From an uncultured Rhodocyclaceae bacterium (lineage in GTDB: Bacteria > Pseudomonadota > Gammaproteobacteria > Burkholderiales > Rhodocyclaceae): a stretch of 64,000 nucleotides of DNA. The notes below the pieces were generated by a model. The model made no database searches and was not told the origin of the DNA. It saw only the letters and a list, made by a program, of their open reading frames with translations. Shown in pieces: positions 10,664 through 59,934 of this stretch (its first letter is position 1; each line of letters opens with the position of its first letter). A program made the position numbers and the translations under genes. The stretch covers positions 868,001 through 932,000 of the forward strand of contig OU015322.1 in NCBI GenBank assembly GCA_907163225.1, in the 5' to 3' direction.

Positions 10664-10673
10664 GCCTCCCGTT

Positions 10674-10848
10674 CCGTGGGAGAGCGCAGATTCAGTCTGC
10701 CGCCGAAGGCGCAATTTCACCCGAAAACGCTCAGGCAAAAGGACCGCGGAACGCAGGTGCAATGTAGCTGTTGCACCAAAAACTCTGGAGAGCGGCGTTT
10801 ACAGCGCCCACCGATGGGGCAAATCTCTCAGGTATCGAGGACAGAGGG
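10674..10848 (+). ncRNA. Tandem glycine riboswitch
   Basis: Two successive glycine aptamers precede gcvT. Aptamer 1 (about 10674-10750) is closed by CCGTGG/CCGCGG and has the conserved GGGAGAGC and CTCAGGCAAAAGGAC blocks. Aptamer 2 (about 10781-10848) has CTGGAGAGC, the GCGCCCACCGATGGGGC arm and CTCAGGTATCGAGGACAGAG. The short linker between them is characteristic. Glycine riboswitches upstream of gcvT normally switch the glycine cleavage operon on when glycine is abundant. The expression platform is probably the terminator immediately downstream. Confidence 0.95.
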
Positions 10849-10887
10849 GTGAAACGCAAGATCCGATCTTTCGTTTCACCCCTTTTT
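10846..10887 (+). terminator. Riboswitch expression-platform terminator
   Basis: An 11-bp stem (10846-10856 with 10872-10882) is extended by an inner AAGATC/GATCTT pairing and followed by five Ts (10883-10887). The 5' arm overlaps the last bases of aptamer 2, so ligand binding could compete with terminator formation. It ends about 40 nt before the gcvT start. Confidence 0.88.
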
Positions 10888-33900: not shown

Positions 33901-34663
33901 GAGCGCCTCCGCCAATTGCTGGCACTTCAGTCATTTCCCAGCTAGCGCCCAGTTTGGGAAGGGCTACGGAAATCTTCGAAATCAGCACTTTTTTCCCGTT
34001 GACCGCAGCAGCCTCGGCCGCCAGCAGACCCGACAATTCGCCCGCCAGAATCGCCGGATCGGCGGTGCTGGCGCGGTGATTGCGCAGGCTGGAAATTTCG
34101 CCATCGCGCACACCGGCCAGCGTCAGCCAGCCGAGGTCGAGACAGGCAAACCAGCCGTCGTCCAGTTGCTTCTGGTGCGCCGCCAGTTCGGCGATCAGCC
34201 GCGGCTGCAGACTGCTCAGGCGCAAGTGCCGGGTCTTGGCCATGGCACGCAGACCGGCCAGCAGATTGCTATCGATGCCGGCAGCAATGCCGCTTTTGCC
34301 AAAGACCGGGCGATCAAGGGCGATCTCCAGGCGGTCAGCCCGTTCGCCCAGCGTGTGCTTGAGCAGCGCCCTGGCCATCATCAACCGAGCCTTTTTCCCA
34401 ATGACATTTTCGCTCCATGGCAACAGCGTATAGCTGGCGAAATGGTCGGCAACCACCACATGCAACGCCGCACCGCCTTTGCCATCAGCCTTGAGCAGCG
34501 CCTCGGCAGCGGCAAGCGCCGGCTGCCAGTCAGCGTCACCAGCGGCTGGCGGCGCAACGTCGGCCTGTTGCCGGGAAACAGCACCGCGCCACGACTGTCG
34601 TTCGAGAACAACGCGCTGCGGGTGAACAAAAAGGGTCAGGCGGTCAAGCCACGAAAGTGACAC
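33893..34663 (-). CDS. PilM/GspL-cytoplasmic-like secretion protein
   Basis: Cytoplasmic actin-fold-like component of about 256 aa that would link the ATPase to the PilN-like protein. Sequence is diverged: LVLLPWSENV-type and DDGWFACLDLGWLTLAGVRDGEI segments recall the PilM/GspL nucleotide-fold core. GTG 34663 is preferred because it overlaps the gspE stop by 20 bp; the open frame extends to 34741 with non-typical residues. Assignment depends on gene order between GspE and the PilN-like gene. Confidence 0.72.
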   Translation of the reverse strand: MSLSWLDRLTLFVHPQRVVLERQSWRGAVSRQQADVAPPAAGDADWQPALAAAEALLKADGKGGAALHVVVADHFASYTLLPWSENVIGKKARLMMARALLKHTLGERADRLEIALDRPVFGKSGIAAGIDSNLLAGLRAMAKTRHLRLSSLQPRLIAELAAHQKQLDDGWFACLDLGWLTLAGVRDGEISSLRNHRASTADPAILAGELSGLLAAEAAAVNGKKVLISKISVALPKLGASWEMTEVPAIGGGAHA

Positions 34664-36353
34664 GATTGGCTTCTTCCAGACTGGTGATCCCGTCGCGGAC
34701 GAGGTCAAGGGCGCTTTCGCGCAGCGAGCGGGTACCGCCACGGCGGGCGGCTTCCTTGAGTTGGCGGATCGGGGCGCGGCTGATGATCAGCTCGCGGATT
34801 TCGTCGTTGAGGACAAGCAGTTCGGCAATCGCTTTCCGGCCGCGATAGCCGGTGCCGCGACAACCGCCGCAGCCAACCGCGCGCTGGAATTTCCAGTCGG
34901 AACTGGCGGCGAGATCGATGTCGGCATGACTCAAATCGTCCGCTGTCGGTACAGTCGGCTGCATACAGGCCGGGCACAGCGTGCGGATCAGACGCTGGGC
35001 AACCACGCCATTGAGCGCCGAAACGAGGTTGTAGGGATCGACTTCCATGTGCAGGAAGCGGCCGATCACATCGAACACATTGTTGGCGTGCACCGTGGTG
35101 AACACGAGGTGACCGGTCAATGCCGCCTGGACGGCGATCTGCGCGGTTTCCGGGTCACGGATTTCGCCAACCATGATCTTGTCCGGGTCATGACGCAGGA
35201 TGGAACGCAGGCCACGGGCGAAAGTCAGGCCTTTTTTCTCGTTGACCGGTATCTGCAAGACGCCGGAAAGCTGGTACTCGACCGGGTCTTCGATGGTGAT
35301 GATCTTGTCTTCGCCGTGATTGATTTCCGTCAGCGCTGCGTACAGCGTCGTCGTCTTGCCGCTGCCGGTCGGGCCGGTCACCAGCACCATGCCGTAAGGC
35401 TCGCTGGAAAGCCGCCGAATACGCGCCATGATGTCGGCGTCAAAGCCCATGGCATCGAGGCGCAGGCCTTGCAGATGGTCAGTCAATGCCTGCTTGTCGA
35501 GGACCCGCAAAACGGCATCCTCGCCCCAGATGCTGGGCATGATGGAGACTCGGATGTCGATCTCCCTATCCTGCCAGCTCACCTTGAAGCGACCGTCCTG
35601 CGGCACGCGTCGCTCGGAAATATCGAGCTCCGAGAGCACCTTGACCCGCGAAACCATCTGCTCGGCAGTCTCGATGCCATCGATGGAACCGGCATAATTG
35701 AGCACGCCGTCGATGCGGTACTTGATCGCCAGACCGCGATTATTTGCCTCGATGTGAATGTCGCTGGCGCCGGCTTTCAAGCCGTCATGCAGCGTCGACC
35801 GCAGCAGGCGAACCACCGCACTGCCGTCTTCAGAAATACGCTGCAGCGACAGATCTTCGGCCACAGAACCGATGGCGATCTGACCGCCTTCGCCACTCAA
35901 GCTGCCATCGAGCGCCCGCACTCGTGATTCCTCGCGAGCCAAAAAGGCGGTCAGCACCGACGGCGGCGCCAGGCGCCAATGCAACCGCTTGCCAAGCGGA
36001 ACCAGGCCCTCCAGCCAGTCGCGCAAAGCGGCATCGAACGGGTTGGGCGTGGCGATCAGGTAGGCGTCGCCAGCTTCCAGCACCAGCGCTTGGCGCCGGA
36101 TGAACTCGGCAAATGGCGCCAGCGCCAAGGCCAGCGAATGCTCCGACAGCTCGGCCAGGCTGATCGCCTGCAAGCCGAAGGCAGCTGCGGTCAGCTCACC
36201 GGCCGCCTCTTCGCCTTGGCCGAAATCGGCCTGCAGGGCCGCCATCACCGCCGGCAATCCACCGCCGGCCGCCGCCAACTGGCGCGCCTGGGCAAGCAAG
36301 GCATCATGTTCCAGGCTATCGGTCAGAAAGCGTTCCTCCATCGGTGAGTTCAT
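34644..36353 (-). CDS. gspE: Type II secretion/type IV pilus assembly ATPase GspE
   Basis: Hexameric cytoplasmic ATPase that drives pseudopilus assembly, 569 aa. The N-terminal ~150 residues are diverged and lack the MshEN repeat. The core has the Walker A GPTGSGKTTT, Asp box ITIEDPVEYQL, Walker B-region MVGEIRDPETAQIA and His box TGHLVFTTVHAN. Near the C terminus a tetracysteine zinc site is visible (CPACMQ plus CGGCRGTGYRGR). It lies 8 bp after gspF on the minus strand. Confidence 0.94.
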   Translation of the reverse strand: MNSPMEERFLTDSLEHDALLAQARQLAAAGGGLPAVMAALQADFGQGEEAAGELTAAAFGLQAISLAELSEHSLALALAPFAEFIRRQALVLEAGDAYLIATPNPFDAALRDWLEGLVPLGKRLHWRLAPPSVLTAFLAREESRVRALDGSLSGEGGQIAIGSVAEDLSLQRISEDGSAVVRLLRSTLHDGLKAGASDIHIEANNRGLAIKYRIDGVLNYAGSIDGIETAEQMVSRVKVLSELDISERRVPQDGRFKVSWQDREIDIRVSIMPSIWGEDAVLRVLDKQALTDHLQGLRLDAMGFDADIMARIRRLSSEPYGMVLVTGPTGSGKTTTLYAALTEINHGEDKIITIEDPVEYQLSGVLQIPVNEKKGLTFARGLRSILRHDPDKIMVGEIRDPETAQIAVQAALTGHLVFTTVHANNVFDVIGRFLHMEVDPYNLVSALNGVVAQRLIRTLCPACMQPTVPTADDLSHADIDLAASSDWKFQRAVGCGGCRGTGYRGRKAIAELLVLNDEIRELIISRAPIRQLKEAARRGGTRSLRESALDLVRDGITSLEEANRVTFVA

Positions 36354-45300: not shown

Positions 45301-45494
45301 GGAAGACTTTCCTCGAAAAAGACAGAGCGGCATGGCGTCACTGTTTTGTTTCAACAAGTCACCAAAACTAATCCGTTCGGCTCATTTTGTCCCTCGCCAG
45401 CAAGGCTGTTCCTGTCACGCCTGATCCATATGCTGGACGTCACTCGCAGACTCAAATTCGAATTTGTCTTCAACTATCAACAGGGGTAACAACC

Positions 45495-46265
45495 ATGATC
45501 CGCAAGACCGTCCTCGCCCTTCTGCTCGCCGCTACCGGCGTCAGCGCTCACGCTGCACTCAACGCTGGTGACATCGCCATCGTTGGCCGCATCAACAACG
45601 GCACACCAGATGCTTTCTCTTTCATTGCCCTCAGCAACATCGCAGCCGGTGAAACCGTTTACTTCACTGACAATGGCTGGACTGGTTCAGCGTTTCGTGG
45701 CGCCAGCGCCACCGACGGCGACGGTAATGAAAACCTGACTAAATGGACTGCCGCCAGCGCTGTTACTGCCGGAACGATCATCTCCAGCACCTCCGCCGCT
45801 TTCACAACCTCGGGTTCAATCGCTGGCACCACCAGCGGCAGCTATGCTTCCCTGGCACTAGGCCAAGGCGGCGATCAAATCTACGCTTTCCAGGCTGCAG
45901 CTTCCAATCCGTTGTTCAACCCAACAACTCAGCTGTATATGTTCGATGACACCAACGGTTTCGAAAACGCCACTAGTTCCAGCCAGGGCAACATCCCGAC
46001 CAATTTGGTCGGCGGTGTAACCGCTGTCAGCTTCAATCAGGCTGTCGGAGGTGGCTTCAGCGTCAAATCCAGCGCACTGAGCGGCTCGGCTCAAACCAAG
46101 GATCAGTGGCTCTCCACTTTTGCCAACACCGATAACTGGCAAGCCGGCACCAGCCTCCCAACTGGCTCCGTGCTGGTCACCGCCGTTCCCGAGCCAAAGA
46201 ACTACGCCATGCTGCTCGCCGGCCTCGGCCTGATGGGTGCCATCGCTCGTCGTCGCAGCCGCTAA
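45495..46265 (+). CDS. Lamin-tail-like exported PEP-CTERM protein
   Basis: Exported protein of 256 aa. A signal peptide (about 1-20, SAHAA) precedes a beta-rich domain starting LNAGDIAIVGRINNGTPDAFSFIAL. It continues with GETVYFTDNGWTGSAFRG, the lamin-tail-like layout often found with extracellular nucleases. The C terminus is a PEP-CTERM signal (VPEPKNYAMLLAGLGLMG, RRRSR). AGGGG lies before ATG 45495. It stands in front of a 5'-nucleotidase and an ExeM-type nuclease, suggesting a matrix or nucleic-acid related role, which is inferred. Confidence 0.83.
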   Translation: MIRKTVLALLLAATGVSAHAALNAGDIAIVGRINNGTPDAFSFIALSNIAAGETVYFTDNGWTGSAFRGASATDGDGNENLTKWTAASAVTAGTIISSTSAAFTTSGSIAGTTSGSYASLALGQGGDQIYAFQAAASNPLFNPTTQLYMFDDTNGFENATSSSQGNIPTNLVGGVTAVSFNQAVGGGFSVKSSALSGSAQTKDQWLSTFANTDNWQAGTSLPTGSVLVTAVPEPKNYAMLLAGLGLMGAIARRRSR

Positions 46266-48394: not shown

Positions 48395-49159
48395 ATGAAA
48401 CAACACGCAATCAAGCCACTGCTCGCCGCCCTGCTGCTGGCCGGCAGCTGCGCCGCCCAGGCAGCGCATTTCGAGGTGGTCAGCTACTCGGGTTTTGCTG
48501 GCTACAACGGCACGGCAAACGAGGAGTTCTTTAGCGATGAAGCTATCGACACCTCCCAAGATGATGACTTCAGCTTCTTTGGCGCCAATGTCTATTCCGG
48601 AAACGGCATCGACCACGCCTACGCTGCCGATGCATCGTTCTTCAAGGCCGGCCAGAACTTTTCAATGAGCGTTTCACAGTCGCTCACCTCGCCGTTGGGT
48701 TCCATTTTCAGCGCCAACACGCTGGTTTCAATGCCCAGCCTGAAGCTCAAGATCGTTGGCGACGGCGAAGCCATCGGCTCCAATGTTTCCATCAGCTTTG
48801 CAGTCGAAAGTACGGCAATCAACACCTACGCCCTGAACGGTGGCACGCTTACCATGGACTTCGCCTTCACGGGCCCGGATGACAGCACAACTTCAGCGCT
48901 GTTCGATTTCAGCAGCGAGTCGACGCGAACCGAGTCCTTCACCCTTGGCTTCACCGGCAAAGTGGGCGACGAATTCCAGCTAAGCGGCAACATGATGAGC
49001 AGCCTGAACGCCGACGGCTTGCAAGCCGTCGAGGCCAGCGCCAGTGGTCAGTTGGTCGGCAACTTCACCATCGCCGCCGTTCCGGAACCCGAGCAGTACG
49101 CAATGTTGCTCGCCGGTCTCGGCCTGCTGGCCGTCGCTGCCCGCCGCCGCAATCGCTAA
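48395..49159 (+). CDS. PEP-CTERM protein, function unknown
   Basis: Exported protein of 254 aa. A signal peptide (about 1-24, AAQAA) is followed by a Ser/Gly/Asp-rich beta domain with no recognised motif, containing SFFGANVYSGNGIDHAYAADAS. The C terminus is VPEPEQYAMLLAGLGLLAV plus RRRNR, a PEP-CTERM signal. AGGAG precedes the ATG. It is 29 bp after the nucleotidase stop and 18 bp before the next PEP-CTERM gene, so the three are probably co-transcribed. Confidence 0.82.
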   Translation: MKQHAIKPLLAALLLAGSCAAQAAHFEVVSYSGFAGYNGTANEEFFSDEAIDTSQDDDFSFFGANVYSGNGIDHAYAADASFFKAGQNFSMSVSQSLTSPLGSIFSANTLVSMPSLKLKIVGDGEAIGSNVSISFAVESTAINTYALNGGTLTMDFAFTGPDDSTTSALFDFSSESTRTESFTLGFTGKVGDEFQLSGNMMSSLNADGLQAVEASASGQLVGNFTIAAVPEPEQYAMLLAGLGLLAVAARRRNR

Positions 49160-49177: not shown

Positions 49178-49678
49178 ATGAAACGACTCTTCCGTACCAC
49201 CGCGCTTGCCGCCCTATTGCTGGCTGCCCTTCCCTCTGCTCAGGCAGCCACCTACAGCTTCTCGGGCATGATGGATTCAGGCTCGCTGACCGGCTCCAGC
49301 TTTTTCGGTAACTTCAGCTTCGACGACCTCGGCCTGAGCGGTATCGGCAGCGAAATTCGCGGCCTGAGCAGCCTCAGCCTGAGATTTGCCGGCCAAACCT
49401 ACACGCTGTTCGATGCCGATGCAGCGCCGGATGTCAGCTATCTGGACGGCGCCTTTCTTGGTCTCTCCTACTCAGCATCCGGCATTGAGCCGAAAGTTGC
49501 CTTCGTCGCTGGCCACAACGATGTCAGCGGCGCCTATCTGGCCTACACCAAAAATGGTCTCGATGGTGCCGGCACCGTGATCTACGCCGCTGTTCCCGAA
49601 CCCGAGTCCTACGCCATGTTCCTGGCCGGCCTCGGGCTGATGGGACTGGCTGCGCTACGCCGTTCCAAACAAGCTTGA
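49178..49678 (+). CDS. Short PEP-CTERM protein, function unknown
   Basis: Exported protein of 166 aa. A signal peptide (about 1-23, AQAAT) precedes a short beta domain beginning YSFSGMMDSGSLTGSSFFGNFSFDD, similar in style to many small PEP-CTERM proteins. The sorting tail is VPEPESYAMFLAGLGLMG with RRSKQA. It is followed by a good terminator, so it closes the unit that begins at the nucleotidase or earlier. Confidence 0.82.
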   Translation: MKRLFRTTALAALLLAALPSAQAATYSFSGMMDSGSLTGSSFFGNFSFDDLGLSGIGSEIRGLSSLSLRFAGQTYTLFDADAAPDVSYLDGAFLGLSYSASGIEPKVAFVAGHNDVSGAYLAYTKNGLDGAGTVIYAAVPEPESYAMFLAGLGLMGLAALRRSKQA

Positions 49679-49789: not shown

Positions 49790-52700
49790 ATGAAAACCAA
49801 CGCTTCGAAATCGCATCGTTTCGCCCGAACCATCATCGCCGCCAGCCTGGTAGCCGCCATGGCGCCGGCTTTTGCCGATGCTACCTATCAGATGCTGCCG
49901 TTTAGCCAGAACTGGTCGAATGCTGGTCTGATTTCGACCAACGATAGCTGGAGCGGCGCGCCCGGCATCATCGGCTACCGTGGCGACGGCCTTACTGGCG
50001 CTGACCCGCAAACCATTTTGGGAGAGGGCTCGCTGGTCATTGACGTCAACGCCAACCAAAACACCCCGAACACCTTCGGCACGGGTGGCGTCACCGAATT
50101 TCAACTCACTGACCCGACCATTGCACTCGCCGGCTCCGGTACTGCCAACGCACCGTACATCCAGCTTCACCTGAATACCACCGGCTTGCAGAATATCCAG
50201 GTTGCGTACAATTTGCGCGACGTCGATGGCTCTGCCGATAACGCCGTCCAGCCGGTCGCCCTGCAATACCGGGTCGGCACCAGCGGCAACTTCATCAATG
50301 TTCCGGCCGCCTTCGTCGCCGATGCCACGACAGCCAATAGCGCCACGCAGGTAACCCCAGTCAGCGTCATTCTGCCGGCTGCGGCCAACAACCAGCCGCA
50401 ACTGCAACTCCGCATCATGACGATCAACGCTGGTGGAAATGACGAATGGGTCGGCATTGACGACATCGCCATCAGCGGCAGCGGCACGGGTGGTGGCGAC
50501 ATCAACCAGCCGATTTCAACCACCTGCCCGGCCGGAACCCTGGCCCAGGGTGAAGGTGGCAGCATCATGCTAACGGCGACCGATGCTGACAGCGTCGTCA
50601 ATGCTGCCAGCCTCGCCGCCGGCACCCCGGCCGGCTTCACGCTCGGCACGCTGACCGCCGCGTCTGTCGATGGTGGCGCTGCCTCCGTTGCGCTCAATGC
50701 CGCCGCCAATCTTGCCGCCGGCAATTACGCCGTGGTCGTCGATTTCGCCAATGACGAAGCCCAGAGCGCCAGTTGCACGGTCAACGTGAATATCAGCGGA
50801 ATAACGCCCATCCATGCCATCCAGGGCAACGGCGCGAGCAGCCCGCTGGATAGCCAGCAAGTCACCACCCAGGGCGTCGTCACCAAGGTGATGAACAACG
50901 GCTTTTTCATGCAGGACGAAACCCCGGATGCCGACGAGGCGACCTCTGAAGGCATCTACGTCTTCACCAGCACCGCCCCGACCGTGGCGGTCGGCAATCG
51001 CGTGCGGGTTGCCGCCACCGTCAAGGAATTCAACGTCGGCACCTTGACCAATAGCGCCACGGCAGCCAATCCGCTGACCGAACTGATCAACGCTTCGGTC
51101 ACCGTCGTCGCGTCTGGCATCACCATCGCGCCAACCGTCATCACCTTCCCGGAAATCAACGAAGGCGATCTCGAACGCTACGAAGGCATGCTCGTCCGCA
51201 TTGAAGGGCCGCTGACCGTGGGTCAGAACTATTTCCTTGGCCGCTTCGGCCAGCTCACGGTTTCCGCCGGTGGCCGCCTCGAAAAGCCGACCAATCGTTA
51301 CCCGGCCGGCAGCCTCGATGCCATCGAGATGGCTGACAACAACGCCCGCCGCCGCATTCTGCTCGACGACGGCACCAGCCTGCAGAACCCCAACCCGACG
51401 CCCTACCTTGCCGCCGACAACACGGTGCGCGCCGGCGACAGCATCGACGGCATCACCGGCGTCATCGACTACGGTCTGGCCACCAGCAGCAACACCGGTC
51501 TGGGCGATTTCCGCATCCACCCGACCGCCGCGCCGACATTCACCCGCAGCAACCCGCGCACCACCGCACCGGCTAGCGTCAATGGCAACATCAAGGTCGC
51601 CAGCTTCAATGTTCTCAACTATTTCACCACCTTCACCAACGGCCAGACAGCCAGTGGCGGCAGCGGTCAGGGCTGTACATTGGGCGGCGCCAGCGCGGCC
51701 GCCAACTGCCGCGGTGCCGACAATTTGGCTGAATTTACCCGTCAGCAAACCAAGATCGTCAATGCGATCAAGGCGCTCAACGCCGACGTGGTTGGCCTGA
51801 TGGAAATCCAGAATAACGGCAACGTTGCGCTCCAGAATCTGGTTTCCGCGCTGAACACCGCTTACGGCAACAACGTCTACGCCGCCGTAACCAACCTCAA
51901 CGGCAGCACCGGCGACGACGCGATCCGCGTTGCCATGATCTACAAGCCTTCTGCGGTCAACCCGATAAATCAGGCAATTTCCGACAACGATCCGATCCAC
52001 AACCGCCCGCCGCTCATGCAAACCTTTGCGGCGGCGAATGGCGAGAAATTCAGCGTTGTCGTCAATCACTTCAAGTCCAAGGGTAGCTGCCCGTCATCAA
52101 GCAGCGATACCAACGCCGATCAGGGCGATGGCCAGGGTTGCTGGAATGTCCTGCGTACCGAACAGGCGCAAGCCTTGCGCAACACCGTGCAAAACCTGCA
52201 AATCAGCAGCGGCGACAATGACGTCATCGTCATCGGCGACCTGAACGCCTACGGCAAGGAAGATCCGATCCTCAACTTCACCGATGCCGGCTACGTCGAC
52301 CAGGTAGCCCGCTTCGACAGCTTCGGCTACTCCTATGTTTTCGATGGCGAAGCCGGCTACCTCGACCACGCGCTGGCCACCCCCAGCCTGAGCGCCCAGA
52401 TCGCGGGTGCCAAGCATTGGCGCATCAACGCCGACGAACCGGCCATCATCGATTACAACACCGAGTTCAAGCAGCCCGCCTGCGCCACCTGCGGCCCCGA
52501 CTACTACAGCAACACGGTGTATCGCTCGTCCGACCACGATCCGGTCATCATTGGCCTCAATCTGGTCAAGCAAATCGGCGGCACGGCTGGACGTGACACC
52601 CTCATTGGCACGGCTGGCGACGATGTCATCACCGGCGGTATCGGTGCCGATACACTGACCGGCGGTACGGGCGCCGACCAGTTCGTATTCACCAGCCTGC

Positions 52701-52951
52701 GCGACGGTGTCGATACCATCACCGACTTCCAGCCAGGTATCGACCGCGTCGTCCTGACACAGGTACTAGCATCAACAGGCATCGTCAGCGGCAACCCGAT
52801 CGCTGCTGGATACGTCACCTGCAAGGCCGTTGGCAGCGATGCCATGATCAGCATCGACCCGGATGCCGCCGGCGCTGCTCTCAGCCGCAACCTGGTGTTG
52901 CTGAAGAACCAGAGCTGTGCTGTAGCAATTCCGGGCAACTTCATCTTCTGA
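49790..52951 (+). CDS. ExeM/NucH-family extracellular endonuclease with RTX-type tail
   Basis: Large exported nuclease of 1053 aa. A signal peptide (about 1-28, AFADA) is followed by a beta-sandwich (to about 240) and a Cys-containing Ig-like domain (about 245-340). The ExeM OB-like domain (VVTKVMNNGFFMQDETPDADEATSEGIYVF) follows. The endonuclease/exonuclease/phosphatase domain has IKVASFNVLNYF, LMEIQNNG, VIVIGDLNAYGKEDP and RSSDHDPVI, the usual catalytic set. The last about 120 residues hold GGTGADQF-type RTX calcium repeats. It should digest extracellular DNA. The combination of Sec signal and RTX tail points to export through the type II-like system. Confidence 0.92.
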   Translation: MKTNASKSHRFARTIIAASLVAAMAPAFADATYQMLPFSQNWSNAGLISTNDSWSGAPGIIGYRGDGLTGADPQTILGEGSLVIDVNANQNTPNTFGTGGVTEFQLTDPTIALAGSGTANAPYIQLHLNTTGLQNIQVAYNLRDVDGSADNAVQPVALQYRVGTSGNFINVPAAFVADATTANSATQVTPVSVILPAAANNQPQLQLRIMTINAGGNDEWVGIDDIAISGSGTGGGDINQPISTTCPAGTLAQGEGGSIMLTATDADSVVNAASLAAGTPAGFTLGTLTAASVDGGAASVALNAAANLAAGNYAVVVDFANDEAQSASCTVNVNISGITPIHAIQGNGASSPLDSQQVTTQGVVTKVMNNGFFMQDETPDADEATSEGIYVFTSTAPTVAVGNRVRVAATVKEFNVGTLTNSATAANPLTELINASVTVVASGITIAPTVITFPEINEGDLERYEGMLVRIEGPLTVGQNYFLGRFGQLTVSAGGRLEKPTNRYPAGSLDAIEMADNNARRRILLDDGTSLQNPNPTPYLAADNTVRAGDSIDGITGVIDYGLATSSNTGLGDFRIHPTAAPTFTRSNPRTTAPASVNGNIKVASFNVLNYFTTFTNGQTASGGSGQGCTLGGASAAANCRGADNLAEFTRQQTKIVNAIKALNADVVGLMEIQNNGNVALQNLVSALNTAYGNNVYAAVTNLNGSTGDDAIRVAMIYKPSAVNPINQAISDNDPIHNRPPLMQTFAAANGEKFSVVVNHFKSKGSCPSSSSDTNADQGDGQGCWNVLRTEQAQALRNTVQNLQISSGDNDVIVIGDLNAYGKEDPILNFTDAGYVDQVARFDSFGYSYVFDGEAGYLDHALATPSLSAQIAGAKHWRINADEPAIIDYNTEFKQPACATCGPDYYSNTVYRSSDHDPVIIGLNLVKQIGGTAGRDTLIGTAGDDVITGGIGADTLTGGTGADQFVFTSLRDGVDTITDFQPGIDRVVLTQVLASTGIVSGNPIAAGYVTCKAVGSDAMISIDPDAAGAALSRNLVLLKNQSCAVAIPGNFIF

Positions 52952-53135: not shown

Positions 53136-53828
53136 TCAGGAACGCTTGTTGCGACGACGGGAAACCACCGCCATCATCATGCCCAAACCGGCCAACAGCA
53201 TGGCGTAGGACTCGGGTTCCGGCACTGCTGAGAGCATGAAGCCAAGTTCGACGTTCTTCTTTTCGATGAACGCGTAGCCGGCAGCAGGAACGTAGGCACC
53301 GAGGATGTTTTCGATGCTGACGGTCGCGGAAGTCAGGGCAGTCGCCGGAACGACACTGGCGTGCGCTTCCCAGTCGGTGGTGGCGTACGACAAGAATGAA
53401 GTCTTGGTAGACAGGGGCGCCGTCGCGGTAATCTGGGAGGTCATGGCCGAAACGCCCACCGGCTTGACACGCAGTTGGCCGCCCACGAGCACGGCGCTAT
53501 CGCCACCGATAACCGCATAGTCGCCAGCTTCAAAGAGATTGAAGCCAGAAAGCTTGTAACCCTGGTCTGCGGTAATCGTGAAGGCAAAAGTGGAGTTTGT
53601 GAACTTGATACCGCTGGCCGTCTGAGCAGCGAAACCCGGGGAACCACCGATATTGCCAAAGACCAGACTGGAATTCACCAACGATGGCGCGCCAAACAAC
53701 CCAATTACCGCTTCGTCATAAGTGATCGTAAAGTGATCGCCATCGAGCGTCTTGGTTGCAGCAAAAGCTTGGACAGAGAAAGCTGCAAACAAAACAGCTG
53801 CGGCTAGCGGCTTGAATTTAAAGGCCAT
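53136..53828 (-). CDS. PEP-CTERM protein, function unknown
   Basis: Exported protein of 230 aa on the minus strand. A signal peptide (about 1-23, AFAAT) is followed by a beta-rich domain with no recognised motif. The domain starts KTLDGDHFTITYDEAVIGLFG and contains FTITADQGYKLSGFNLFEAGDY. The C terminus is VPEPESYAMLLAGLGMMMAV plus RRRNKRS. GGAG precedes the ATG. The gene is alone between terminators and the divergent eps operon, so it is a candidate direct target of the same regulator as the eps genes. Confidence 0.82.
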   Translation of the reverse strand: MAFKFKPLAAAVLFAAFSVQAFAATKTLDGDHFTITYDEAVIGLFGAPSLVNSSLVFGNIGGSPGFAAQTASGIKFTNSTFAFTITADQGYKLSGFNLFEAGDYAVIGGDSAVLVGGQLRVKPVGVSAMTSQITATAPLSTKTSFLSYATTDWEAHASVVPATALTSATVSIENILGAYVPAAGYAFIEKKNVELGFMLSAVPEPESYAMLLAGLGMMMAVVSRRRNKRS

Positions 53829-54166
53829 TTAAGAACTCCAGAAGAACCAATACGATGGGGAAGTGGTGAAAAAGTGAGCGATGCGTTTAATTGGGTAAGA
53901 CCACCCTAACACTAATACTGAGTCAAAAATATTACGTCCGCCACCTCAAAAAAATGCGAAAACCATAGTCCGATATGACTACATTGTGCCTCAATCCTTC
54001 TCTCCCTGTCCATTCTAAAAGCGTAATTCATGCATTTCGCGTGAAAAAATCGAGGGATTGGCGCAAAAATATCCCCTAACATGTCGGCCTTAATCTTTTT
54101 GACATCTTGGCTTCCTACAATCGCCTTCCGGCCGTCATAGAAATCACTTATCAAGGACCCCTCCCG
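53829..54166. other. 338-bp divergent control region, PEP-CTERM gene / eps operon
   Basis: AT-rich spacer between the divergent PEP-CTERM gene and epsD. It contains TTGAC-like elements on both strands (near 54096 on plus, near 53921 on minus) but no well-spaced -10 for either, and a GG-N10-GC sigma54 arrangement was looked for and not found. No coding frame in it is convincing. Confidence 0.5.
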
Positions 54167-55141
54167 ATGCACGCCCACCGCTTTCAAAAATCGTTCTCAC
54201 TGCTCGCCGCTGCTCTCGCTGTGGCCATTCCGCTGGCTGGTTGCGGAAGCGACAAAGCCGATGGAAAAGCTGCGACGCAGGTAGCCGCAAAGGTCAATGG
54301 CGCTGAAATCTCGGTCCATCAGATCAATTCCGTGCTGACCAAGGCCTCTGGCGTCACCAACGAGAACGCACCACGTGCCCGCAAGGAAGTCCTTGACCGC
54401 CTGGTCGACCAGCAAATTGCCGTTGAACAAGCCCTCGCCAAGAAACTCGACCGCAGCCCTGAAGTCCTGCTCAATATTGAAGCCGCCCGCCGCGAGATCC
54501 TGGCCCGCGCCTACCTGGAGCAAATTGCCGCCGCCCAGCCCAAGGCCACTGACGAAGAAGTCAAGCGCTACTACGACGAACACCCAGACCTCTTCGCCAA
54601 GCGTCGCGTGTACAACATCCAGGAGCTGACCATTGCCAAGACGGGTGCGCCGCTGGACGAACTGAAGACACTGGTTTCCTCGGGCAAGCCGATGGAAGAA
54701 ATTGCTGGATGGCTGAAGAGCAAAAATATCCCGGCTCGTGGCAATGCTGGCGCCCGTGCCGCCGAACAGCTGCCGCTCGAACTCCTGCCCAAGCTGGCCC
54801 AGATGAAAGATGGCCAGACCGCACTGATCGATGGCCCGCAGCAAGCATTCGTCATGCGCGTTGTTGCCTCGCAATCTGCTCCGGTAGACGAAGCCGCCGC
54901 CAAGCCGCGAATTCAGCAGTTCCTGCAGAACCAGCGCAGCAGCAAGGCCGTTGCTGAAGAAATGAAGAAACTCAAGGACGCCGCCAAAATTGAACTGGTT
55001 GGCGATTTTGCCAAGACCGTCGAAGCCCCCGCCGCCCAGCCAGCCGCTCCGGTTGCTGCCGCGGCAGCCACTCCGGCACCGGCCAGTACTGAAAAGCCCG
55101 TCGCCAACGCCATCGAAAAAGGCGTCGCCGGTCTGAAATGA
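54167..55141 (+). CDS. epsD: EpsD-family peptidyl-prolyl isomerase lipoprotein
   Basis: Outer-periplasmic lipoprotein of 324 aa, the first gene of the XrtB-type EPS operon. The lipobox LAGC ends the signal at about residue 27. A SurA_N-like helical domain (VAAKVNGAEISVHQINSVL to about residue 140) precedes a diverged parvulin-like rotamase domain. A C-terminal Ala/Pro-rich tail (from about 290) follows. AAGGA lies upstream of ATG 54167; the frame is open to 54107 but would bury the signal. The stop overlaps epsE (ATGA). Confidence 0.88.
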   Translation: MHAHRFQKSFSLLAAALAVAIPLAGCGSDKADGKAATQVAAKVNGAEISVHQINSVLTKASGVTNENAPRARKEVLDRLVDQQIAVEQALAKKLDRSPEVLLNIEAARREILARAYLEQIAAAQPKATDEEVKRYYDEHPDLFAKRRVYNIQELTIAKTGAPLDELKTLVSSGKPMEEIAGWLKSKNIPARGNAGARAAEQLPLELLPKLAQMKDGQTALIDGPQQAFVMRVVASQSAPVDEAAAKPRIQQFLQNQRSSKAVAEEMKKLKDAAKIELVGDFAKTVEAPAAQPAAPVAAAAATPAPASTEKPVANAIEKGVAGLK

Positions 55142-56004
55142 TCAGCCACGCCACCGAAAAGAAAGCAGACTCAATGACCCAGGCAATTCACCGCCTCCTC
55201 GCTTCACTCTGGCTACTGCTCTCGGCAGCGCTGCTTACCGCCTCATCAATGGCGGCAGCGGCTGAACCGCGTGTCAATGTCGACTACAAACTCGGGCAAG
55301 GCGACGCCATTCGCATCGTCGTCTTTCAAAACCCGGATCTGACCCTCGACAGCCGCGTTTCCGAAAGCGGCACCATCACCTACCCGCTGATCGGCACCGT
55401 CGACATCGGTGGCCTGAGCATCGAAGCAGCCGAAAAGCGCATCGCCAAAGGCCTCAAGGATGGTGGTTTCGTGCAGAAGCCGCAGGTCAACATCATTCTC
55501 ATGCAGGTACGCGGCAATCAAATCTCCGTACTCGGCCAGGTTAACCGTCCCGGCCGCTTCCCGCTTGAAACCGCCAACAACCGGGTTTCAGACGTTCTGG
55601 CCATGGCCGGCGGCATGACCCCGAACGGCTCGGACACCGTGGTCATCACCGGCATCCGCGAAGGCAAGCCCTTCCGCCGCGAAATCGACTTCCCGGCCAT
55701 CTTCATCGACAACAAGAGCGACGAAGACATTCAGGTATCCGGTGGCGACGTCATCTACGTCCACCGCGCCCCGGTCTTCTACATCTACGGCGAAGCGCAG
55801 CGCTCCGGCTCCTACCGCATCGAACGCGGCATGACCGTTCAGCAAGCCCTGGCCCAGGCCGGTGGCCCGACACTGCGCGGCACCGAAGACAGAATTCGCG
55901 TCCACCGCCGCATTGCCGGCGGTGAAATCAGCCGGCTTTCTCTGGAAGCCAACGAGCCCGTCCGAGCGGACGACGTCATTTTCGTACGCGAAAGCCTGTT
56001 TTAA
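55138..56004 (+). CDS. epsE: EpsE-family polysaccharide export protein
   Basis: Wza-like outer-membrane export protein of 288 aa. A signal peptide (about 13-42, ending AAAAEP) precedes the Poly_export domain (YKLGQGDAIRIVVFQNPDLTLDSRVSESGTITYPLIGTV). Two SLBB-type repeats follow (VRGNQISVLGQVNRPGRFPL and FYIYGEAQRSGSYRIERGMTVQQAL). ATG 55138 overlaps the epsD stop; ATG 55174 would start right at the signal peptide. It should form the outer gate for the EPS together with EpsF and EpsL. Confidence 0.92.
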   Translation: MISHATEKKADSMTQAIHRLLASLWLLLSAALLTASSMAAAAEPRVNVDYKLGQGDAIRIVVFQNPDLTLDSRVSESGTITYPLIGTVDIGGLSIEAAEKRIAKGLKDGGFVQKPQVNIILMQVRGNQISVLGQVNRPGRFPLETANNRVSDVLAMAGGMTPNGSDTVVITGIREGKPFRREIDFPAIFIDNKSDEDIQVSGGDVIYVHRAPVFYIYGEAQRSGSYRIERGMTVQQALAQAGGPTLRGTEDRIRVHRRIAGGEISRLSLEANEPVRADDVIFVRESLF

Positions 56005-56016
56005 GGCGAATCAACA

Positions 56017-57423
56017 ATGAACTTGCAACAATTCCTGCTCATTCTTTGGGCACACCGCAAACTGGTGATGTTTACTTTTTTTGCTACCGTGATTGCTACC
56101 ACGGTAGTTACATTCATGCTTCCCAAGGAATACAGCGCCACCGCCGCTGTGGTACTTGACGTCAAGTCACCTGACCCCATCGCCGGCATGGTTCTGCCCG
56201 GCTTGATGGCTCCTGGCTATATGGCCACCCAGGTCGACATCATCAACAGTGACCGCGTCACCATGCGCGTCATCAAGATGTTGCGCATGGATGAAAACCC
56301 GAACATTCAGGAGCAGTGGCAGGAAGCCACAGAAGGCAAGGGAAAGATCGGGCCTTGGCTAGCTCAGTTGTTGCAGAAAAAACTCGACGTGAAGCCCTCG
56401 CGCGAAAGTAACGTCATCTCAATCAGCTACTCCGGAGCCAGCCCGGAATTTGCCGCAGCCATGGCCAATGCCTTCGCCCAGGCCTACATCGACGTCAATC
56501 TCGAACTGCGCATCGAACCGGCCCGCCAAAACGCCAAATGGTTCGACGAACAAAGCAAGCAATACCGCGAACGTCTCGACACCGCACAAAAGGCCCTTTC
56601 CGACTACCAGCAAAAATCCGGCATCGTCGCCACCGACGAACGCCTGGACTACGAAACCCAGAAACTGAACGAACTCTCGACCCAGCTCACCGTTGCCCAA
56701 GCCCAAGGCACCGACTCCAGCAGCAAGCGCAAGAGCAGCGGCAGCGCCGACACCCTGCCGGAAGTCATGCAAAGCGGTCTGATCAGCCAAATGAAGGGTG
56801 ACATTGCCCGCCTGGAATCCCGCCTGAAAGAGGTCTCTGGCAATTTTGGCGTCAATCACCCGCAATACCAGCGCTCACAAGCCGAACTGGCCGAACTGAA
56901 GAGCAAGATGAACGCCGAAATCGCGCGCATCTCCAGTTCCATCGGCACCGCCGGAAATATCAGCAAACAAAAGGTTAGCGAACTGATTGCTGCGGTCAAC
57001 GCCCAAAAGAAGCGAATTCTCGAACTCAAAGAACAGCGTGACGAAATCACCTTGCTCGTTCGTGAGGTTGAAACCGCCCAGCGCGCCTTTGATGCAGTCG
57101 GCCAGCGCACCACCCAGAGCCGCCTCGAGTCGCAAAGCGTTCAGACCAACGTTGCCGTCCTTAACACAGCCACCGAGCCTGCCAAACACGCACGCCCCAA
57201 GAGAATGATCAACATCATGCTATCGATGTTCGTCGGCCTCATGCTTGGCGTTGGCGCTGCGCTTCTACTTGAACTTAGCCAGCGTCGTATCCGCTCCGCT
57301 GACGATCTGGTACAGACCCTCGGCATTCCCGTCCTCGCATCGCTTGATGCCGAACAAACTGACCTGAACTGGATGAGCGCCCTGCGCCGCCTCTTCTCTT
57401 CACGTCAAGCACGCCCAGCATGA
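56017..57423 (+). CDS. epsF: EpsF-family chain-length determinant protein
   Basis: Wzz/PCP-type inner-membrane protein of 468 aa. Transmembrane helices lie near residues 12-33 and 400-420, around a long periplasmic coiled-coil region (about 170-360) with LRIEPARQNAKWFDEQSKQYRERLDTAQKAL and many Gln/Glu/Lys. A Pro-rich motif PAKHARPKRM precedes the second helix, as in PCP proteins. It sets chain length and links export to the cognate EpsG. It starts 12 bp after epsE and overlaps epsG by 4 bp. Confidence 0.92.
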   Translation: MNLQQFLLILWAHRKLVMFTFFATVIATTVVTFMLPKEYSATAAVVLDVKSPDPIAGMVLPGLMAPGYMATQVDIINSDRVTMRVIKMLRMDENPNIQEQWQEATEGKGKIGPWLAQLLQKKLDVKPSRESNVISISYSGASPEFAAAMANAFAQAYIDVNLELRIEPARQNAKWFDEQSKQYRERLDTAQKALSDYQQKSGIVATDERLDYETQKLNELSTQLTVAQAQGTDSSSKRKSSGSADTLPEVMQSGLISQMKGDIARLESRLKEVSGNFGVNHPQYQRSQAELAELKSKMNAEIARISSSIGTAGNISKQKVSELIAAVNAQKKRILELKEQRDEITLLVREVETAQRAFDAVGQRTTQSRLESQSVQTNVAVLNTATEPAKHARPKRMINIMLSMFVGLMLGVGAALLLELSQRRIRSADDLVQTLGIPVLASLDAEQTDLNWMSALRRLFSSRQARPA

Positions 57424-58328
57424 GCGAAACAGCCATGAACTTTGCCACACCCGAATCCATTATTTCCCGTGCTGCTCAGCATCACGGGTTAGCCAGCCAG
57501 TCTATCGGGGCAATCCTCGTCGACTCAGGCCGACTCAGCGCCGATGCCGCCGAAAGCATCATCAAGCTGCAAAAAGCTGAGGGCCTGCGCTTTGGTGACG
57601 CCGCTATCCAACTCGGCCTGCTGACCGAAGCAGACGTCCGTTACGCACTCTCACACCAATTCAATTACCCCTACCTTCTCCCTGACGATAAAAACATCAG
57701 CGAAGAAGTAGTTGCCGCCTTCAAGCCCTTCAGCCCTGTCGTCGAAAAACTTCGCGCCCTGCGTAGCCAACTGATGCTGCGCTGGTTTGATGGCGAAACC
57801 GGCAACAAGATGCTGGCACTGACCAGCCCTGACACAGGCGAAGGTCGTAGCTACATCGCCGCCAACCTCGCCGTCGTATTCTCGCAGCTAGGCGAACGCA
57901 CCCTGCTTATTGATGCCGACCTGCGCAACCCGAGGCAGCACGAAATATTCAAACTCGGCAATCGCACCGGGCTCTCTACCATCCTGGCCGGCAGAACCAC
58001 CCTGGACGAATCCATCAATCGCATTCCTAACCTGCTCGGGCTATCTGTCCTCCCGGCAGGCGCAATTCCGCCCAATCCGCAAGAACTGCTCAGCCGCCCA
58101 CAGTTCACCAGCATGCTTCAAGCCGCCCAACAGCAATTTGACGTCATTCTTTTCGACACCTCGGCCGGCGCCGAATTTGCCGACGCGCAAATGATTGCTG
58201 CCCGTGCCGGCGGCGCCATTGTTCTTAGTCGAAAGAACATCACCCACGCCTCCCGACTGCGCGACCTAACGACTTCCCTGCAACACTCCGGGGCTACCGT
58301 TGTTGGCTCTGTCCTCAACGGCAACTAA
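57420..58328 (+). CDS. epsG: EpsG-type BY-kinase-like protein with N-terminal MshEN domain
   Basis: Cytoplasmic partner of EpsF, 302 aa. Residues 28-51 and 57-80 form two 24-residue motifs separated by five residues, each with G at positions 3 and 10 and Q at 24, the layout of the c-di-GMP-binding MshEN domain. A short linker leads to a P-loop domain resembling bacterial tyrosine kinases, with SPDTGEGRS (Arg143 in place of the P-loop lysine), LLIDADLR (Walker A') and later DVILFDTSAG. A C-terminal tyrosine cluster is absent. ATG overlaps epsF (ATGA); the next gene follows by 14 bp. Confidence 0.9.
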   Translation: MSETAMNFATPESIISRAAQHHGLASQSIGAILVDSGRLSADAAESIIKLQKAEGLRFGDAAIQLGLLTEADVRYALSHQFNYPYLLPDDKNISEEVVAAFKPFSPVVEKLRALRSQLMLRWFDGETGNKMLALTSPDTGEGRSYIAANLAVVFSQLGERTLLIDADLRNPRQHEIFKLGNRTGLSTILAGRTTLDESINRIPNLLGLSVLPAGAIPPNPQELLSRPQFTSMLQAAQQQFDVILFDTSAGAEFADAQMIAARAGGAIVLSRKNITHASRLRDLTTSLQHSGATVVGSVLNGN

Positions 58329-58342
58329 GCGAGACCCGTTTC

Positions 58343-59206
58343 GTGAACACCCTGAGCAAACCTCTGCCAAGCCCCCTGACCCAGTGGTTTCCAGTACTTC
58401 TAGGTATTGGAATGCTCTTCATCCCGACCATCTTCGATCTGACGCGCACGCTCTGGCGCAGCGATGATCAAGTTCACGGCCCCATCGTACTTTTCGTTGC
58501 CCTCTATTTATTCTGGAGCCTGCGCAACGACGTACTTGAAGCACCTGTTGCGCCCAAACCACTTATCGGCTGGCCACTCCTGATCATCGGCCTGATCACC
58601 TACACCCTGGGGCGCTCCCAGGGGTTGGTCATCTTCGAAATTGGATCATTGCTGCTCATCCTGCCCGCTCTGCTGCTTCTCATGCGTGGCGGCAAGGGCC
58701 TCAAGGCCGCCTGGTTCCCAATATTCTTTCTGTTTTTCATGATTCCGTTGCCCGGCCCGATCGTCGACTCGCTCACCATGCCGATGAAAATTGCCGTCTC
58801 CTACGTCACTGAAAACATCCTCTACAACGTTGGCTACCCCATCTCCCGCAACGGCGTCATCCTGCACATGGGTCAATACCAACTGCTGGTTGCCGACGCC
58901 TGCGCCGGGCTACACACCCTATTTTCGCTGGAAGCACTCGGCCTGCTCTACCTTCACATTATCAAACATGAATCCTGGACGCGAAATACGGTCCTGGCCA
59001 TTCTGATCATTCCCATCTCCTTCACCGCCAACGTTATCCGTGTCATCACGCTAACGCTGGTCACCTACTACTTCGGCGACGAAGCCGGCCAGGGATTTGT
59101 TCATGGATTTGCCGGCATGGTGCTATTCATCACCGCACTCATGCTCATCATCGCCACCGACTCGCTGCTGCGCTTCGGCGCCAAGAATCAAAGAGAACAG
59201 ACGTGA
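58343..59206 (+). CDS. xrtB: Exosortase B (XrtB)
   Basis: Polytopic membrane transpeptidase-like enzyme of 287 aa with about eight hydrophobic segments. It recognises PEP-CTERM tails, cleaves, and probably transfers the protein to the surface or matrix. The catalytic residues can be placed at Cys187 (ADACAGLHTLFSLEALG), Arg233 (ANVIRVITLTLV) and His254 (GFVHGFAGM). A GTG start at 58343 fits the reading frame. It lies in the eps operon between epsG and epsI and overlaps epsI (GTGA). It is the likely processing enzyme for the five PEP-CTERM proteins of this window. Confidence 0.94.
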   Translation: MNTLSKPLPSPLTQWFPVLLGIGMLFIPTIFDLTRTLWRSDDQVHGPIVLFVALYLFWSLRNDVLEAPVAPKPLIGWPLLIIGLITYTLGRSQGLVIFEIGSLLLILPALLLLMRGGKGLKAAWFPIFFLFFMIPLPGPIVDSLTMPMKIAVSYVTENILYNVGYPISRNGVILHMGQYQLLVADACAGLHTLFSLEALGLLYLHIIKHESWTRNTVLAILIIPISFTANVIRVITLTLVTYYFGDEAGQGFVHGFAGMVLFITALMLIIATDSLLRFGAKNQREQT

Positions 59207-59934
59207 CCAAGCCCCGCACCCTGACCGCCTTCTGGCCATGGATGGACTCGTTCGCCATCGTTCCCACAGCAATGCTCATTTTTGCCCTGATGGCATGCGC
59301 AGCACTCGGCAGCATTGCGCTGACCCCAACTCGAAAGCTTTCGGACAGCGCCCCCAAAGTCAACATTGAGAGAAGCATCCCCAAAGCCTTTGGCGACTGG
59401 ACAGTCGACGCCAAGAGCATGCCGATTGACCCCTCACCGGCCCAAAAAGCAACCATAGAACAAATCTACGACCAGACGGTAAGCCGCACCTACGTCAACA
59501 GCAAAGGTCAGCACGTCATGCTCTCCGTTGCCTATGGCGCCTCGCAAAACCGCGAAATGCGAGCCCACCGACAAGAAGTCTGCTATGCCGCGCAAGGCTT
59601 CCAGATCAACAACCTAAAACACGAAGTCATTGAAGTCAGTGGCGCCCAAGTACCAGTCACCCGCATGGTCGCCAAACACCAGTTCCGCACCGAACCGGTA
59701 ACCTACTGGTTCACCATGGGTGACGGCGTTGTGCGCAGCTATCTGGATCGCCAGATAGCGCAGTTGAAATACGCATTCTCAGGCCTTATCCCTGACGGCT
59801 ACCTCTTCCGCGTCTCCAGCATCGAAGACAACCCGGAAATCGCCTACCGTCGCCAGATCGAGTTCACCAACGAACTACTACAAGCAAGCGCGCCGGAACT
59901 GCGAAAAAAACTGCTTGGTGACGCAAGCCAGTAG
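59203..59934 (+). CDS. epsI: EpsI-family protein
   Basis: Exosortase-associated protein of 243 aa. One N-terminal transmembrane segment (about 19-43) precedes a periplasmic beta-rich domain with FGDWTVDAKSMPID, RTYVNSKGQHVMLSVAYG and HRQEVCYAAQGFQI, the usual EpsI signature with its conserved Cys. The EpsI family is found as a separate protein or fused to exosortase, with unknown biochemical role. GTG 59203 overlaps xrtB. The following 109-bp gap before the polymerase gene has no clear promoter. Confidence 0.9.
   Translation: MTKPRTLTAFWPWMDSFAIVPTAMLIFALMACAALGSIALTPTRKLSDSAPKVNIERSIPKAFGDWTVDAKSMPIDPSPAQKATIEQIYDQTVSRTYVNSKGQHVMLSVAYGASQNREMRAHRQEVCYAAQGFQINNLKHEVIEVSGAQVPVTRMVAKHQFRTEPVTYWFTMGDGVVRSYLDRQIAQLKYAFSGLIPDGYLFRVSSIEDNPEIAYRRQIEFTNELLQASAPELRKKLLGDASQ

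Follow-up and report, generated by a model that had tools for sequence, protein, structure and literature searches.

The epsG locus

The stretch of DNA analysed here, referred to below as the window, comprises 64,000 nucleotides from an uncultured Rhodocyclaceae bacterium (GenBank assembly GCA_907163225.1, contig OU015322.1, positions 868,001–932,000 of the forward strand). Our subject is its gene epsG (57420–58328 of the window, + strand), whose 302-residue product scores well above the curated cut-off of NCBIfam family TIGR03029 (393.5 against 313.8 bits). The protein couples a short N-terminal domain, almost certainly a relative of the MshEN domains that bind bis-(3′-5′)-cyclic dimeric GMP (c-di-GMP), to a domain with the fold of the bacterial tyrosine kinases (BY-kinases).

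The ATG of epsG shares four bases (57420–57423, from the open reading frame (ORF) coordinates) with the stop codon of epsF (56017–57423, +). The latter gene encodes a polysaccharide co-polymerase, or chain-length determinant (TIGR03017, 672.6 bits over residues 1–444 of 468), in which the NCBIfam scan reports no kinase domain; EpsF is the presumed partner of EpsG. Further upstream on the same strand are epsE (55138–56004; TIGR03028), for a polysaccharide export protein, and the gene for an EpsD-family peptidyl-prolyl isomerase (54107–55141; TIGR02925), the real start of which possibly lies further in. Downstream follow exosortase B, xrtB (58343–59206, +; TIGR03113, 399.3 bits), and epsI of the B type (59203–59934, +; NF045609). 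Because EpsD, EpsE and EpsF are encoded upstream of epsG, and exosortase B and EpsI downstream, we assign the locus to an XrtB-type exopolysaccharide (EPS) gene cluster; the original prediction, which had been made from the DNA letters alone, likewise places epsG in an XrtB-type EPS operon.

An N-terminal domain related to MshEN

Residues 28–80 of EpsG (57501–57659, +) comprise two motifs, residues 28–51 (57501–57572) and 57–80 (57588–57659), separated by a spacer of exactly five residues (52–56; 57573–57587). These are the limits originally predicted for a pair of MshEN motifs, and the sequence, running from Ser28 to Gln51 and from Arg57 to Gln80, agrees with them. The predicted pattern is likewise present, with Gly at position 3 (Gly30 and Gly59), hydrophobic residues at positions 6–7 (Leu33-Val34 and Ala62-Ile63, of which Ala is weakly hydrophobic), Gly at position 10 (Gly37 and Gly66), Leu at position 12 (Leu39 and Leu68) and Gln at position 24 (Gln51 and Gln80). 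Arg at the first position, expected of both motifs, is found in motif 2 only (Arg57); motif 1 starts with Ser28. When the earlier pattern is itself used for counting, the double motif with its five-residue spacer occurs once in the 124,820 residues of the six-frame translation of the window, in EpsG, and single motifs occur three times; 200,000 shuffles of EpsG residues 1–92 gave no double motif and 227 single ones.

Conservation was assessed over 91 EpsG sequences, namely the window protein and those of 90 other loci. These derive from 103 loci with a hit, out of 109 searched, after removal of the window's own locus (L008), nine BY-kinases of other families (L028–L036), two distant hits (L052 and L053) and L026, an EpsG-like frame of 257 residues that matches from model position 38 and lacks part of motif 1. 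Each search contributed its best-scoring loci, so that the rows lean towards typical EpsGs. In this sample the double motif is followed by a conserved YPYL sequence (residues 83–86; 57666–57677, +), where the link to the kinase-like domain begins, with Tyr83 found in 86 sequences and Pro84, Tyr85 and Leu86 in 76 each.

NCBIfam NF053729 ('c-di-GMP_motif, MshE-related') matches EpsG residues 29–80 with 38.2 bits (cut-off 38; E = 9.3e-10), and in a search of the whole genome EpsG is the weakest of four places found, at 41.5 bits. The same model is found at E ≤ 0.001 in 64 of the 65 EpsG proteins of alignment A1 (the window and 64 rows of less than 75% mutual identity), not all of which need pass its cut-off. 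The Pfam MshEN model, PF05157, matches neither EpsG nor any of these 65 proteins. In the three other proteins of the genome that carry both models, presumed traffic ATPases, PF05157 starts 0–15 bases past the end of NF053729; from this placement it appears to describe the C-terminal subdomain, and since it seems to cover the other subdomain its silence on EpsG refutes nothing. The absence of an MshEN profile match, named with the original prediction as a refuting outcome, is judged a bad test, and we rejected PF05157 as arbiter of the presence of MshEN because it adjoins, rather than overlaps, the c-di-GMP motif. To judge from its sequence, EpsG carries the N-terminal MshEN subdomain only, the C-terminal one not being recognised. 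Elsewhere in the window, an ORF at 34644–36353 (−), by eye a type II secretion or pilus-type ATPase, matches PF05157 weakly but over its cut-off (29.8 bits), and has no match to the NF053729 motif at E ≤ 0.01.

A profile was built from 60 N-domains (alignment A2, which is A1 without L048, L058, L090, L092 and L097, whose trimmed stretches are longer and whose starts are less sure). Searched against the PDB, it finds eight distinct sequences at E ≤ 0.01, all eight of them MshEN-type ATPases (PilF, MshE and PilB; 5htl and 6f8l are among the hits), with E-values of 2.3e-17 for PilF and 6.4e-10 for MshE (5htl), the remainder being PilF or PilB. AlphaFold confidently predicts four helices, at residues 29–35, 41–54, 58–64 and 70–80. 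The best Foldseek match of this model is the MshE–c-di-GMP complex (5htl_B), at 0.8 Å over 56 columns (probability 1.00, E = 0.014); ranks 1–13 are all MshEN-type chains, followed by fumarases, with XpsE (2d28) a weak match at rank 24, and no match attains E = 0.001. Four columns are invariant in the 60 N-domains, Gly30, Phe58, Gly59 and Gln80, which correspond with Gly11, Leu39, Gly40 and Gln61 of MshE.

Sequence profile, fold and conservation thus support the predicted homology to the c-di-GMP-binding subdomain of MshEN, and we conclude that EpsG residues 28–80 are almost certainly an MshEN_N homologue with its fold. In common with the MshEN domain of Vibrio cholerae MshE (5htl) and with PilF GSPII-B, EpsG has a double motif of 53 residues, a four-helix bundle, both Gly and both Gln residues and, in kind, the hydrophobic clusters; the motif-2 Arg is shared with MshE. 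It differs from MshE and PilF in that only the N-terminal subdomain is recognised, in the replacement of Arg by Ser and of Leu by Ala in motif 1, and in being joined to a BY-kinase fold instead of a traffic ATPase.

Ligand-contact positions

Contacts to c-di-GMP in MshEN domains are made by motif positions 1, 2, 3, 17, 21 and 24, according to the part of Wang et al. (PMC5013675) considered here. In EpsG these are Ser28, Ile29, Gly30, Ala44, Ile48 and Gln51 in motif 1, and Arg57, Phe58, Gly59, Val73, Leu77 and Gln80 in motif 2. Passages of two other papers widen what can be accepted: Arg, Lys or Leu is allowed at position 1 (PMC11731258), and a result on Ile55 and Ile59 is consistent with large hydrophobic residues at the Leu positions (PMC12002112). 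On this basis all six positions of motif 2 and four of motif 1 are acceptable, giving 10 of 12, and the misses are Ser28, in place of Arg, and Ala44, in place of the first Leu. All 12 positions are acceptable in 3 of the 91 EpsGs, those of L011, L018 and L025, while 19 score 11, 58 score 10 and 11 score 9. Column 28 is Ser in 54 and Arg in 6, with Arg, Lys and Leu together accounting for 9, and column 44 is Ala in 55 and a large hydrophobic residue in 30. Residue 27, directly before motif 1, is Arg in 49 of the 91 sequences and Gln in the window protein; Arg27, where present, might substitute for the missing stack in motif 1.

Gly30, Gly59 and Gln80 are present in all 91 sequences and Gln51 in 78, so that both Gln residues occur together in 78. 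The retention in homologues on which the original prediction was staked is thus found for the Gly/Gln pattern, and fails for the motif-1 Arg, which is absent from the window protein and from nearly all its relatives (present in 6 of 91). Mean entropies of 1.20 bits for the contact columns, 1.46 for the core and 2.13 for the rest indicate that the contacts are the more conserved, in a test that weights near-copies down and in which the rows share ancestry; 0.76% of random sets drawn from the 53 positions were as conserved as the contact columns.

In type II secretion ATPases such as XpsE the N-domain acts as a docking module, and the EpsG domain could likewise be an MshEN_N relative that has lost c-di-GMP and only tethers EpsG to EpsF or to a different partner in the membrane. 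In the window protein and many of its relatives two residues that stack on guanine have given way to Ser28 and Ala44, as such a role would lead one to expect. XpsE itself, reported as a non-binder, has the same fold (PMC5013675, in part; 2d28 is the weak rank 24 match noted above), and passages of PMC12002112 describe an engineered PilF GSPII-A domain, with Ala for the motif-2 Gly, in which Ser at the start of motif 2 abolished the remaining binding. XpsE is altered at the positions of MshE Gly11, Leu29, Arg38, Gly40, Leu54, Leu58 and Gln61, among others (PMC5013675, same part), whereas EpsG retains Gly30, Arg57, Gly59, Leu77 and Gln80, and has Ile48 and Val73 at the places of the altered Leu29 and Leu54. 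The invariance of Gly30, Phe58, Gly59 and Gln80 and the greater conservation of the contact columns also argue against docking alone. Finally, the modelled first helix starts at residue 29 with no confident upstream extension, unlike that of PilF GSPII-A, which is described as blocked, a difference that a model cannot settle. We consider docking alone unlikely, and on balance the EpsG module may well bind c-di-GMP, which would place the chain-length machinery under direct c-di-GMP control.

The kinase-like domain

The remainder of EpsG, from about residue 99 to residue 302 (57714–58325, +), matches TIGR01007 with 147.2 bits, and its fold matches CapAB (3bfv) and Wzc (3la6) best. Near its start are Glu109, Arg112 and Arg115 (57744–57764, +), all three present in 88 of the 91 sequences, which form the EX2RX2R motif, a motif with a role in oligomerisation. 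The Walker A' (TLLIDADLR, residues 161–169; 57900–57926, +) and Walker B (VILFDT, residues 242–247; 58143–58160, +) sequences are intact. Asp165 is found in all 91 EpsGs, residue 167 is Asp in 70 and Asn in 21, and Asp246 is found in 88.

The Walker A region (SPDTGEGRS, residues 136–144; 57825–57851, +) departs from this. Aligned to solved BY-kinases, it has Arg143 (57846–57848) in place of the usual Lys, and column 143 of the family is Arg in 59 sequences, Lys in 12, Ala in 10, Cys in 6, Val in 3 and Thr in 1; the adjacent Gly142 and Ser144 are kept in 89 and 85 of 91. There is also no Tyr-rich tail at the C-terminus (residues 297–302; 58308–58325, +). From Gly296 onward 82 of the 91 sequences, that of the window included, have no Tyr and 9 have one.

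The XrtA-associated tyrosine autokinases (TIGR03018) served as a control; they resemble EpsG in having a stand-alone BY-kinase fold and belonging to an exosortase-linked EPS system. Among 30 such kinases of the same order (the best 30 of 44 places), the Walker-A Lys is present in 30/30 and the neighbouring Ser or Thr in 30/30, as read from the alignment column (a simple pattern finds 26/30), and all 30 have at least three Tyr in their last 30 residues. Nine other BY-kinases of the class sample form a looser control, seven of them with GxGK[ST] and seven with at least four Tyr among the final 30 residues. In a tree of 107 kinase domains the EpsGs form one group (99/97). Its deepest rows, the long-branched L027 and L018, lack the Walker-A Lys, which needs four changes on the tree. 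One branch of 18 rows (L040, L042, L043 and 15 more, Janthinobacterium rows among them) has Ala, Cys, Val or Thr at this position throughout, the clearest loss of the basic P-loop residue.

One of these 30 XrtA-associated tyrosine autokinases is encoded in the present genome, outside the window at about 807.6 kb (L117, 1144–2085); it has a GEGKS sequence and a YGYGYGYGYG tail, and gave no match to the c-di-GMP motif. Two exosortase-linked EPS systems thus seem to coexist in this cell, only one of them equipped with a canonical kinase.

The original description of this domain as BY-kinase-like holds for its fold; since most EpsGs have another residue in place of the Walker-A Lys and the Tyr-rich tail is absent, it is better read as pseudokinase-like. 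Position 143 varies freely, and is therefore a poor fit to an obligate autokinase. From these residues EpsG is probably pseudokinase-like rather than an autokinase.

Could EpsG nevertheless be an active BY-kinase or ATPase with an Arg P-loop, phosphorylating other proteins under the tuning of its N-domain? The retention of Asp165, Asp246, Ser144 and Gly142 noted above speaks for activity, as do the 12 sequences that keep the Lys, and NCBIfam both names the family a tyrosine kinase and recognises ATPases with a GR variant. The 20 of 91 sequences with Ala, Cys, Val or Thr in column 143, the deep L027 included, imply on the other hand that EpsG can do without a basic residue in its P-loop, and the absent tail sets EpsG apart from the XrtA-type kinases, all 30 of which keep both Lys and tail. 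An active kinase is, in our view, quite improbable. Nucleotide binding or turnover may all the same survive in EpsG, because Arg P-loops are known and 12 of 91 sequences keep the Lys.

Distribution and genomic surroundings

Among 399 sampled genomes of the order, the EpsG family is found in 95 at E ≤ 1e-60 and in 67 over the family cut-off. Some genomes hold two or three EpsG-type genes (for example G404, G424, G448, G651, G712 and G721), so that such cells may employ EpsG in several EPS systems. Of 90 loci, 88 have the gene for EpsF 5' of epsG in the same orientation. Downstream, XrtB was found in 59 of the 90 loci, many of these loci having short flanks; of the 15 with long flanks 9 have it, and we rejected the adjoining of xrtB and epsG as a universal arrangement. 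An EpsF–EpsG fusion, considered for the long stop-to-stop frames of L007, L022 and L025, was likewise rejected, the upstream text being by eye not EpsF-like.

In the window, four ORFs just 5' of the eps genes (45387–46265, 48395–49159 and 49178–49678 on the + strand and 53136–53828 on the − strand) have, by eye, PEP-CTERM-like VPEP...RR ends, as expected beside an exosortase. An ORF of 1053 residues at 49790–52951 (+) has, by eye, the look of an extracellular nuclease bearing calcium-binding repeats towards its end. Two glycine riboswitch aptamers in tandem (Rfam RF00504) lie at 10667–10756 and 10775–10854 (+), with 70.2 and 53.8 bits. A promoter and terminator scan gave no useful result.

A proposed c-di-GMP module on a probable pseudokinase-like partner of EpsF

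The combined reading, in which EpsG is an MshEN_N-type c-di-GMP module (residues 28–80) on a pseudokinase-like partner of EpsF, is in our judgement about evenly poised. Its computed parts are the domain homology with the predicted fold, the retention across the sampled family and the losses on the kinase side. A chance or low-complexity match with no MshEN-type domain behind it, to which the silence of PF05157 on EpsG and the 65 A1 proteins and the weak fumarase matches might point, is rejected as most improbable, being contradicted by the NF053729, PDB profile, Foldseek and shuffle results and by the way PF05157 adjoins the c-di-GMP motif in three other proteins.

In the mechanism that we propose, c-di-GMP would bind the module at residues 28–80, and binding would alter the packing of EpsG on the EpsF oligomer. 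The altered packing would drive a cycle of EpsF assembly and disassembly, the role taken by tyrosine phosphorylation in Wzc-type systems, where octamer assembly is governed by how far the Tyr tail is phosphorylated (PMC12004946, in part), and polymerisation and export of EPS would thereby follow the c-di-GMP level. For the EcpK/EpsV and HfsB/HfsA pairs, passages of the same paper propose a phosphorylation-free cycle of binding and unbinding of a pseudokinase on its co-polymerase, and name no signal for it. EcpK of Myxococcus and HfsB of Caulobacter are stand-alone BY pseudokinases that share with EpsG a BY-kinase fold beside a kinase-less co-polymerase, the lack of a Tyr-rich tail and an altered active site (PMC12004946, same passages). 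EcpK lacks all Walker motifs, whereas EpsG mainly lacks the Walker-A Lys, with Walker A' and B remaining.

Several observations weigh against the combined reading. The margin of NF053729 over its cut-off in the protein scan is a narrow 0.2 bits. In motif 1 the Arg position is occupied by Ser and the first Leu position by Ala, replacements that predominate in columns 28 and 44 of the family, and the hydrophobic face formed by Ala44 and Val73 is smaller than that of the MshE leucines; the loss of binding on introducing Ser into the engineered PilF domain points the same way. No GGDEF domain was matched within the window. On the kinase side, the Walker-A Lys is kept in 12 of 91 EpsGs, and the NCBIfam 'KGGVGR-motif variant' ATPase family, with a match to EpsG that falls far short of the cut-off (29.5 against 90 bits), indicates that Arg is possible in a P-loop.

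Counted in favour of the reading are the 25 GGDEF domains that the genome encodes; a diguanylate cyclase close at hand, such as the Nfr system has, was rejected, given the result for the window. Also counted in its favour, two low-molecular-weight Tyr phosphatases are found in the genome and no gene for one in the window, other phosphatase families not having been searched.

Part of this picture is already known. Passages of Wang et al. (2016; PMC5013675) list 'exopolysaccharide biosynthesis in Methylobacillus sp.' (strain 12S) among MshEN proteins, citing the methanolan eps genes; that protein is very likely the EpsG orthologue, and neither EpsG nor tyrosine occurs in the main text as searched. 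MshEN control of an EPS enzyme is likewise known from Escherichia coli NfrB, which resembles EpsG in the fusion of MshEN to a part of an EPS machine and is reported to bind and need c-di-GMP, but differs in its glycosyltransferase output domain and in having MshEN at the C-terminus (PMC8669469, in part). Neither MshEN nor c-di-GMP occurs in the main text of PMC12004946 as searched. The portions consulted of three further papers add nothing: the EpsG of PMC11340318 is a different protein and that source was rejected, PMC6325625 was set aside since it has EpsG and MshEN in its reference list only, and PMC1569441 makes no mention of EpsG. No paper joining MshEN with EpsG-type BY-kinases was found in the open-licence literature among the matches listed, and within that scope we found no earlier analysis of the whole family, no report of the Ser and Ala replacements in motif 1 and none of the pairing with a pseudokinase-like domain.

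Where Pfam MshEN is relied upon alone, surveys would undercount candidate c-di-GMP receptors, because PF05157 misses the EpsG class altogether. If EpsG does carry a c-di-GMP module, an assembly cycle of the EcpK type would have its signal, and the Wzy-type chain-length machine would gain a c-di-GMP input. More tentatively, and as less likely than not, we suggest that in XrtB-type systems a c-di-GMP-operated pseudokinase, EpsG, may replace the phosphotyrosine switch and drive the EpsF assembly cycle, with that switch kept by the XrtA system present in the same cell. If true, this would be a phosphorylation-free polysaccharide co-polymerase gated by a second messenger.

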